Below, in pieces: positions 33,026 to 35,523 of a stretch of 39,262 nucleotides of DNA (the stretch's first letter is position 1; the number at the start of each line of letters is the position of its first letter). Source of the DNA: an uncultured Bacteroidia bacterium (GTDB taxonomy: Bacteria > Bacteroidota > Bacteroidia > J057 > CALLMJ01); assembly GCA_938005475.1 (NCBI GenBank), contig CALLNY010000038.1, positions 1 to 39,262 on the forward strand. The letters are read 5' to 3'. The notes beneath the pieces were generated by a model that was not told where the DNA came from, did no database searches, and saw nothing but the letters and a program-made list of their open reading frames with translations. The position numbers were made by a program, and so were the translations under genes.

Positions 33026-33033
33026 TATATTTG
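33026..33033 (+). promoter_or_regulatory. -7 promoter element for the methyltransferase-fold gene
   Basis: TATATTTG, 20 bases before the ATG at 33054. It faces the TPR promoter in a 48-base divergent region. Confidence 0.5.
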
Positions 33034-33053
33034 AAATCTGATTTCATAAAAAA

Positions 33054-33767
33054 ATGCATCAAATAAATACAATTTTTGAAATAGGGATTATGGCTATCTT
33101 TCTTTTGCAAAGTTGTGCTATTTCTCCTACAAAAATGTTGTACTCAATATTTGAACCATCAGATACATTAGTTAACTGTGATATTTATTTATCTGATTAC
33201 GAATATTTAGAGAAAATCAACAAGCGAGAATATATTAACTATGAATTTAAGGCTGGTGATACTATTGCAGAGATAGGTGCAGGCAATTTATTTTTTTCAT
33301 TGGCTAATATGTGCTTTGTTGATAGTCTAACTTTTTATGTTCAGGATTTATCGTTAGTTTGTTTATCAGAGACTGAGTCTCAGAAAGGAAAAGAACACTT
33401 TACAAAACTACGTGGTTTGGGACCTCTGAAAGGGTGTATTCATATTGTTCAAGGGGATACCAATCGTTCTAATTTACCGTATAATACTTTTGATAAAGTA
33501 ATTTTGCGTTTGGTATATCATGAATTTAAAAATCCTGAACAAAATTTACAAGATATATGGCAGATATTGAAGCCTGATGGAATACTTTATGTTGGAGAAA
33601 ACGTTCAAAAAAAGAAAAATAAAACGATAAAATGCGGCATAGAGCGAACAGAGCCTAATTTAATACGAGAGATAGAAAATGTGGGATTTAAGTTACAAAA
33701 AATTTCTTCGGTTTCAAATTCAAAACACTTTAAAATATATAAATTTACAAAAAATGATCATGATTAA
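33054..33767 (+). CDS. Class I SAM-methyltransferase-fold protein with lipoprotein-like N-terminus
   Basis: 237 aa. Residues 1-21 look like a lipoprotein signal (hydrophobic IGIMAIFLLQ, then LQSC with Cys21). From about residue 60 a Rossmann methyltransferase core follows: motif I as DTIAEIGAGNLFFSLAN (the second and third glycines of E/DxGxGxG are altered), an acidic strand-2 end FYVQDLS, and the motif NTFDKVILRLVYHEFKNPEQ with a Y-H-E-F post-motif and LKPDGILYVGE. SAM is not known in the periplasm, so either the protein is cytosolic with a coincidental hydrophobic start, or it is an exported non-catalytic relative. It shares a divergent promoter region with the TPR protein gene. Confidence 0.65.
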   Translation: MHQINTIFEIGIMAIFLLQSCAISPTKMLYSIFEPSDTLVNCDIYLSDYEYLEKINKREYINYEFKAGDTIAEIGAGNLFFSLANMCFVDSLTFYVQDLSLVCLSETESQKGKEHFTKLRGLGPLKGCIHIVQGDTNRSNLPYNTFDKVILRLVYHEFKNPEQNLQDIWQILKPDGILYVGENVQKKKNKTIKCGIERTEPNLIREIENVGFKLQKISSVSNSKHFKIYKFTKNDHD

Positions 33768-33777
33768 CCAATCTTAT

Positions 33778-33785
33778 TATCTTTG
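33778..33785 (+). promoter_or_regulatory. -7 promoter element for the T9SS protein gene
   Basis: TATCTTTG, 16 bases before the ATG at 33802. It argues against the longer frame that begins inside the preceding gene at 33679. Confidence 0.5.
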
Positions 33786-33801
33786 CTTGAATAAAAAAGT
33801 C

Positions 33802-35523
33802 ATGCAAAAACTAAACTTAGCCATTTTGCTCTTTTTGTTAGTTTATTATAATGTAGGGGCTCAAATCTCTTTTAATTTAGAAGTAGACCAAAGCGTTGAT
33901 GGAAACGAATTAGTGTTGGATTTTATGGTTTATAGGCCTGTTGGCTCTACTCCTTTTGCGTTTGGTTCTTCAAATTTTAGTATTTATGTGAATTCCGCGG
34001 CTTTAAATGTTCCAGGATTATATAAAGATCCTGCTTTTGATGGGCTTTGGGATAATGGAAATAACCCAGTCAATTATTATGACCTTTCTGTTGGGCATAA
34101 TAATTCTAATTATGTCAATATGAATATTAACTACATAGTGGGCTCACCCGGTACAGGGAGTACTGTGCCCGAAGGTAGAACACGTATAGGAAGAATGCGT
34201 ATCCCTATTACAGACCCTACACAATGTAATTCTATTACATGGCGTATTCCCCCACTAGCCATTCAAAAACACGATGGTACTAGTATAAAAAACTTTGCAA
34301 ACTTTGTTAATTCCTCTTTTTGTTTACCACTTTGTGCCAATCCACCAGTTTTTACGCAAGCTACTGCATCTATCTGTAATGGGCAGTCTTACGTATTCAC
34401 AACACAAATTAGCTCTACTTGCTCATTAGTAGTGGTTAATGGTTCTGCCAATGCTCAAATCACTAATATAGATACTTCAAGTCATCTAATCCAATTTTCT
34501 GGAGTAGGAAACCTAACATTAAGGTTTACTGGTCCTAACGGCTGTTTTAAGGATACCACAGTACATGTACATCCTAATCCTTCTATAGTAAGTTACACTA
34601 ATTTATGTTCAGGAAGTTTGGTAGAATTTCAAGGAAGTGACAGTAATCTGAATTGGTTTATTTTAGGATACGATTCTACGTTGTCTTTCTCAGATACTAC
34701 CGCCTTGAATAGCCAAAACTTTTCTACTCAAATCAATGGTTATGGAAGTTTTACATTAGCAATAGAAAATACAACTACGAACTGTATTTTTGATACTATT
34801 CTCACCATTCGCCCCATAGAAATTGTACAACCATCACCTATTGCTTTATGTAATGGAGATACCTTTACTATACAATTAAACCAAACTGTCAACAGTGCGC
34901 AATGGATTTTTCCTAACCATTTAGTTTTGATAAGTGGAGGCACTTCTTTAGATAGCTTTATTGTTTTGAGAACCCAATTTTACGGAACATATACCGTATT
35001 CGTTCAAGGAGTGAACACTAATGGTTGTTTATTTAATTTGAATTACGTGGTTTCAGTAGATACTCCTTTGCAATCTTTTAATATTTTACATACCACAGAT
35101 AACCAATCTCAAACTATTTTAGTAAGCCCTTATGAGCCTGTTTATTGGTATTTCAATGATACTTTATTAAATATCATTGACGATACTTTGCATATTACAC
35201 AATCAGGTAATTATTATGCAGTTTACATCAATAACTGTGGAATTTTTTCTTCCGAGACATTAATCTACGCTCCGACCTTAAAACCGTTATCATTAGAAAA
35301 CTCTTTCACTTTGTATCCTAACCCTAATGATGGTAATTTTTACATTCAAGTTCTTAAAACAGGATTTTATAAAATTCGTATCTATGATGGAGTAGGTAAA
35401 TTAGTATATCAAGACGCATTTCAAGGAGAAAAATATTACCTACAATTAAAAGAAATTACAGAAGGGGTTTATACGTTGGAAGTAGAAGGTTTAGGAACAA
35501 TAAGATGGGTCTATATGCGATAA
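33802..35523 (+). CDS. Secreted beta-rich protein with T9SS type A sorting domain
   Basis: 573 aa. The signal peptide is MQKLNLAILLFLLVYYNVGAQ. An N-terminal domain (about 22-180, FNLEVDQSVDGNELVLDFMV to ITWRIPPLAIQKHDG) resembles the cohesin-like domain of many T9SS proteins. Then come three to four Ig/PKD-like beta modules, each with a Cys-containing start such as ASICNGQSYVFTT, TNLCSGSLVEFQGS and IALCNGDTFTI. The C-terminus (SLENSFTLYPNPNDGNFYIQ, KIRIYDGVGKLVYQ, GVYTLEVEGLG) is a type A sorting domain. It is probably a surface or adhesive protein. The first 41 codons of the longer frame overlap the methyltransferase gene and are not used. Confidence 0.88.
   Translation: MQKLNLAILLFLLVYYNVGAQISFNLEVDQSVDGNELVLDFMVYRPVGSTPFAFGSSNFSIYVNSAALNVPGLYKDPAFDGLWDNGNNPVNYYDLSVGHNNSNYVNMNINYIVGSPGTGSTVPEGRTRIGRMRIPITDPTQCNSITWRIPPLAIQKHDGTSIKNFANFVNSSFCLPLCANPPVFTQATASICNGQSYVFTTQISSTCSLVVVNGSANAQITNIDTSSHLIQFSGVGNLTLRFTGPNGCFKDTTVHVHPNPSIVSYTNLCSGSLVEFQGSDSNLNWFILGYDSTLSFSDTTALNSQNFSTQINGYGSFTLAIENTTTNCIFDTILTIRPIEIVQPSPIALCNGDTFTIQLNQTVNSAQWIFPNHLVLISGGTSLDSFIVLRTQFYGTYTVFVQGVNTNGCLFNLNYVVSVDTPLQSFNILHTTDNQSQTILVSPYEPVYWYFNDTLLNIIDDTLHITQSGNYYAVYINNCGIFSSETLIYAPTLKPLSLENSFTLYPNPNDGNFYIQVLKTGFYKIRIYDGVGKLVYQDAFQGEKYYLQLKEITEGVYTLEVEGLGTIRWVYMR

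Follow-up and report, generated by a model that had tools for sequence, protein, structure and literature searches.

The open reading frame at positions 33054-33767 of a 39,262-nucleotide stretch of DNA from an uncultured Bacteroidia bacterium (the whole stretch is referred to here as the window) raises the question of how a SAM-methyltransferase fold comes to stand behind a lipoprotein-type N-terminus, and what such a protein might do outside the cytoplasm. Judging from its sequence and that of its relatives, we give an even chance to the reading that the protein is Sec-exported and probably lipid-anchored, with a class I methyltransferase fold in which binding of an adenosyl ligand has probably been retained. 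It also appears to belong to a clade, as yet without a name, of putatively exported methyltransferase-fold proteins.

The open reading frame and its surroundings

33054-33767, forward strand: methyltransferase-fold protein, predicted to be exported (open reading frame of 237 amino acids; Pfam Methyltransf_11)

The ATG-started frame was confirmed in the window. No ATG, GTG or TTG stands in frame between 33054 and the preceding upstream stop, and an alternative start at codon 13 would leave just 8 residues ahead of Cys21, the candidate lipidated residue. A whole-protein search of its own genome gave one match for this open reading frame. In the divergent upstream gene, which encodes a TPR protein, ATG codons stand at 33047 and 33005, and its TTG-started version therefore probably exaggerates the overlap with the methyltransferase frame. 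On the 5' side of the latter, TATATTTG (window 33026-33033) fits the TAnnTTTG promoter element of Bacteroidota and is a candidate promoter. Downstream, window 33679-35523 encodes a large protein with the secretion sorting domain Por_Secre_tail (2.3e-9), the true start of which is probably the ATG at 33802.

Relatives and their grouping

Profile searches covered 395 genomes of the phylum and 395 of the class. In the class-level search, with E up to 1e-18, 22 of the 395 genomes gave a match by our own count, 20 of these falling in the clade of the window protein (clade A), which is sparse within the class. The proteins compared are the examined share of the profile matches, many further matches having come without a locus, and they were sorted by eye into clade A (19 used), a sister clade B (23), a group D (4) and UbiE-like controls (13, of which 5 entered the tree and the motif counts). 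Dropped before counting were a clade A copy with an in-frame TAA (L052, from genome G484) and the generic methyltransferases L005, L016, L017, L030 and L041. The TAA interrupts the match at L052:1501-2052; the clade B copy L104 likewise carries an in-frame TAA inside its match. L002, L018 and L049, which are one record, were counted once, as was the pair L003/L050, and four more clade A copies (three in G671, one in G625) were inspected by eye only and stand outside the counts.

The closest relative, 65-67% identical, is that of a genus mate (L018, the same as L002 and L049; record CALLMJ010000031.1). Between the two genes dN was 0.26 and dS 1.6, indicating purifying selection, and identity reached 72% from residue pair 46 onward. 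In a quick tree with long branches, a branch with support 82 set clade B apart, and clade A needed 2 changes; the window/L018 pair lies on a long branch and its placement is unsure. A clade B profile applied to a second sample at 1e-30 matched 31 of 296 genomes, or 28 of 296 for clade B proper after three remote matches (about 1e-31 to 1e-34) were set aside; one open reading frame was taken from each of these 28 genomes, many of which are shared with the first B set.

With Pfam at E up to 0.001, ankyrin models were matched in three clade A members and TPR_2 in four. C-terminal repeats were seen on several methyltransferase-fold proteins of predicted export, TPR-like by eye in L054, L055, L057, L058 and L059, and ankyrin in L062, L066 and L067.

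Fold and putative cofactor pocket

33183-33764, forward strand: class I methyltransferase domain, residues 44-237 (Methyltransf_11, AlphaFold model, Foldseek, VIA-align)
33270-33290, forward strand: altered motif I EIGAGNL, residues 73-79 (E73-I-G75-A-G77-N-L79), third Gly replaced by Leu
33345-33347, forward strand: strand-2 acid Asp98 (Asp or Glu in 18/19 of clade A, window included, 23/23 of B and 4/4 of D)
33453-33458, forward strand: Gly134-Asp135 after strand 3 (in clade A, Gly134 in 19/19, Asp135 in only 2/19)
33519-33524, forward strand: His156-Glu157 after strand 4, candidate active-site pair (His in 19/19 of clade A, 23/23 of B, 4/4 of D and 0/5 of UbiE)

The class I SAM-methyltransferase layout that had been read from the sequence alone was borne out. 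Methyltransf_11 matched residues 77-180 of the window protein (E 1.3e-9, 39 bits, cut-off 21.2) and was matched by all 19 clade A members; among NCBIfam models, none reached its cut-off for the window protein. An AlphaFold model of moderate confidence, built on three sequences (mean pLDDT 68, pTM 0.68, residues 1-4 and 16-46 below 50), contains a Rossmann-like domain with the seven-strand class I order and matches SAM methyltransferases: Foldseek placed 3dh0 on top (E 3.4e-12), and VIA-align left TleD (Z 17.2, 180 aligned at 3.6 A) and 3dh0 (Z 16.7, 173 aligned at 3.3 A) tied. A fold match by itself tells nothing of function, and the pocket residues were compared one by one.

Motif I is indeed altered, as the original prediction had it, EIGAGNL departing from the canonical D/E-x-G-x-G-x-G. 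The third Gly is missing in the window protein, in L018 and in L061, and also in L082, which lies outside the counted set; a methyltransferase domain elsewhere in the window's own genome (L129, DIGCGSKPYE) likewise lacks it. Across clade A the first Gly is kept in 19/19, the preceding Asp or Glu in 18/19 and the third Gly in 16/19, and the second Gly in just 4/19, versus 22/23 in clade B, where the first Gly, the preceding acid and the third Gly are all present in 23/23. In the second clade B sample, DxGxGxG was found in 28/28 and YHE in 27/28, L117 having Thr for His. The strand-2 acid, singled out beforehand as the residue to check, is present in the window protein as Asp98 and kept in the clade; we take this to be the ribose-binding position of class I methyltransferases, and Gly134-Asp135 to be, by homology, the adenine side of the pocket. 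The residue at Glu157 varies within clade A (Glu 9, His 5, Gln 3, Asp 2; n=19).

These substitutions bear on the main alternative, a pseudo-methyltransferase in which cofactor binding disappeared and the exported fold survived in a structural or protein-binding role, an explanation that we regard as possible though on the unlikely side. The rarity of the second Gly in clade A compared with B and the loss of the third in four proteins are what it would lead one to expect, the ankyrin and TPR_2 matches in the clade would suit a binding role, and SAM is, to our knowledge, not known from the periplasm. Drift of the pocket residues would be expected as well, yet the first Gly, the strand-2 acid and His156 are kept throughout clade A or in all members but one. 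Moreover, the pattern E/D-x-G-x-x-x-G, present in most relatives, occurs also in active catechol O-methyltransferases. The third Gly is absent from nicotinamide N-methyltransferase. An altered motif I is not proof of lost cofactor binding, because the strand-2 acid is kept and the window/L018 pair is under purifying selection, and the earlier suggestion of a non-catalytic protein was not established. Catalysis by the window protein is nevertheless doubtful, given the altered motif I that it shares with L018.

Probable export of the window protein and its relatives

33054-33113, forward strand: hydrophobic N-terminus, lipoprotein-type signal, residues 1-20 (n-region without Lys or Arg; aligns with MKKLIHKSISLFMMISFLLILLNGC of the genus relative)
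33105-33116, forward strand: lipobox LQSC, residues 18-21, with Cys21 as candidate lipidated residue (aligned to Cys25 of the LNGC lipobox of L018)

The lipoprotein-like N-terminus, with its FLLQSC, is present as described: residues 1-21 are MHQINTIFEIGIMAIFLLQSC, and the lipobox-like LQSC closes this stretch, so that by our own patterns a hydrophobic stretch is followed by a lipobox Cys. As a signal it is weak. The n-region holds no Lys or Arg and has a net charge of -1 versus +3 in L018, one Glu lies inside the hydrophobic stretch, and the N-terminal hydrophobicity is 2.37 versus 3.00 in the genus relative. The lipobox Cys residues of the two proteins are aligned in spite of just 42% identity over the first 45 aligned residues, and we infer export of the window protein because L018 has a strong signal with the Cys in the aligned position.

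For the relatives, export was scored by our own hydrophobicity and lipobox rule rather than by SignalP, with a pass at 2.3 and with the best among several starts, which inflates the scores in every group. On this scale a hydrophobic N-terminus was found in 17/19 of clade A, 22/23 of B and 4/4 of D, compared with 1/13 of the UbiE-like controls (L006 among these is 5'-cut and hence uninformative for the N-terminus) and 76/211 background frames, the background being uncurated neighbouring open reading frames. Of the two clade A misses, rescored from later starts, L059 passes with 2.38 and L064 fails with 2.07. The four extra clade A copies have signal-like starts too, by eye, and in the second clade B sample a hydrophobic stretch of at least 2.11 lies close to one of the ten earliest starts in 28/28. 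Methyltransf_11 was located at 12 places in the genome of the window itself; among the 8 that were read, only the window frame has a signal-like N-terminus, the seven other domains scoring 2.07 at most. Export of the methyltransferase fold thus looks clade-wide by these N-terminal features, not a quirk of the window gene, and the export that the original prediction took as the likely fate of one protein appears to extend to its clade; the window protein does not stand alone as a misplaced enzyme.

The lipobox fared less well among homologues. A hydrophobic N-terminus together with a lipobox was found in 7/19 of clade A and 16/23 of clade B, against 14/211 neighbouring frames and 0/13 controls, and under a strict lipobox rule the counts are 5/19, 10/23 and, for D, 1/4. 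Since the strict lipobox occurs only in a fraction, many of these proteins may be soluble exported forms. Our twin-arginine pattern, applied to the N-terminal 45 residues of 46 proteins, the window protein included, had no match, so that Sec and not Tat is the probable route; the Tat route, which could bring a bound cofactor along, is unsupported. Cytoplasmic homologues without the N-terminal segment, which would speak against export, were absent from the close family examined, and a signal is lacking in the 3dh0 chain as matched and in L125, a remote relative of clade B with DFGCGPGYF. These two suggest that the exported clades may descend from cytoplasmic enzymes.

It is quite improbable, in our estimate, that the protein acts in the cytoplasm, either because its weak N-terminus fails as a signal or because it works before export. 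The n-region with its net charge of -1 and no Lys or Arg, and the making of SAM in the cytoplasm, fit such a role, but L018 combines a strong lipoprotein signal with the aligned Cys, and of the proteins examined in the clade and in its sister clade nearly all carry signal-like N-termini. Sec substrates stay unfolded until export, so cytoplasmic activity is hardly expected. Least probable of all is a lipobox by coincidence, with the N-terminus a membrane anchor or a miscalled start: the combination does turn up among neighbouring frames, and in clade A the lipobox is infrequent under the loose and the strict rule, but no start is available upstream, a start at codon 13 would put no more than 8 residues ahead of the Cys, and the Cys position is kept between the window protein and L018 despite their divergent N-termini.

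Proposed role

On the preferred reading of an exported adenosyl-binding protein, signal peptidase II would cleave ahead of Cys21, and the mature protein would be anchored on a membrane and face the periplasm. The domain would retain an adenosyl ligand, which may be SAM, SAH or a related nucleoside, with D98 holding the ribose and H156-E157 on the substrate side. The protein could then either transfer methyl groups with SAM of extracytoplasmic origin or have a ligand-binding role; the unusual cofactor supply raised in the original prediction is a possibility.

A wider proposal is that SAM-dependent methyltransferases that are both Sec-exported and functional form a broad family in Gram-negative bacteria, comprising the intact sister clade and, as a diverged branch, the clade of the window protein; we put this forward as speculative and rather unlikely. 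If true, SAM or some other donor of methyl or adenosyl groups would have to be available for use outside the cytoplasm. Because the signal-bearing sister clade has intact SAM motifs, use of the cofactor outside the cytoplasm is hard to dismiss. The existence of such a conserved clade fits poorly with SAM being limited to the cytoplasm, and the alternatives are that a donor pool exists beyond the cytoplasm or that the periplasm re-employs a common enzyme fold for another purpose.

Comparison with known proteins

A SAM-dependent methyltransferase of Aquifex aeolicus, 3dh0, for which we know of no substrate, is the nearest solved relative according to Foldseek and also in sequence, with E 5e-4 for the window protein and 1e-27 for the sister-clade profile. 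It shares the strand-4 His-Glu with the window protein; unlike the latter, it has a canonical motif I in the alignment, and its match starts at chain residue 5, leaving no room for a signal in a construct that is possibly trimmed. Clade B resembles the window protein in its signal-like N-terminus, its methyltransferase domain and its strand-4 His-Glu (23/23 in the first sample), but differs in an intact DxGxGxG (22/23), in an additional N-terminal block containing GREI and WLER, and in overall sequence (about 24% identity for L069). UbiE/MenG proteins have the same class I fold, occur in the same phylum and are picked up by the same profile; in contrast to the window protein, 12 of the 13 lack a signal-like N-terminus (L006 being 5'-cut), and 5/5 have Arg-Asn in place of His-Glu. 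Assignment of the window protein to UbiE/MenG was rejected, the NCBIfam scores being 19.4 bits against a cut-off of 378 and, for MenG_MenH_UbiE, 15 against 158.

Secreted methyltransferases of pathogens, a term in use for Mycobacterium tuberculosis and Plasmodiophora, likewise leave the producing cell. They act inside host cells, where SAM exists, and differ in this from the window protein. In the literature searched, most subscription papers lying outside it, the term 'periplasmic methyltransferase' was absent, and no recognisable account was found of periplasmic SAM methyltransferases or of an exported family of this kind. The portions available of PMC8939145, PMC9751292, PMC10924467, PMC6515984 and PMC10117105 do not describe such proteins.

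Gene neighbourhoods, plasmids and phages

Neighbourhoods were compared all against all in 20 regions, some of them cut by contig ends, together with part of the window. The regions came from 16 genomes, four of them from G671 and two from G625, and none from G644 or G681. Besides the methyltransferase, the families present in at least three loci reflect synteny within a single family (L092, L094, L095) or are large secreted proteins (window, L079, L086), the latter being the only neighbours to recur across families. No operon partner can therefore be claimed. Beside the methyltransferase gene of the genus relative lies L018:4064-4774, the product of which we take to resemble a Cas6-type protein.

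When plasmids were searched with the window protein, 6 records matched, all below 60% identity and none spanning 80% of the protein. Signal-bearing clade B proteins occur in Bacteroidota, and homologues of theirs are plasmid-borne in Cyanobacteria and Proteobacteria, as seen in the four plasmid records read out of 12. Compared with L069, those of Geminocystis and Delftia are 50.7% identical, and those of Methylosinus (30.5%) and Bradyrhizobium (28.5%) are more remote; all four have signal-like starts by eye, and in plasmid records clade B proteins are annotated as 'class I SAM-dependent methyltransferase'.

Among phage records there were 5 matches, all weak and each short of 80% coverage. A search of viral contigs gave no relative with the window-based profile and a single one with that of the sister clade, L075:2905-3642 on the IMG/VR contig IMGVR_UViG_3300032249_000927. 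This signal-bearing sister-clade gene adjoins phage genes that look tail-like by eye, and it could be either cargo of the phage or a host gene at its flank.
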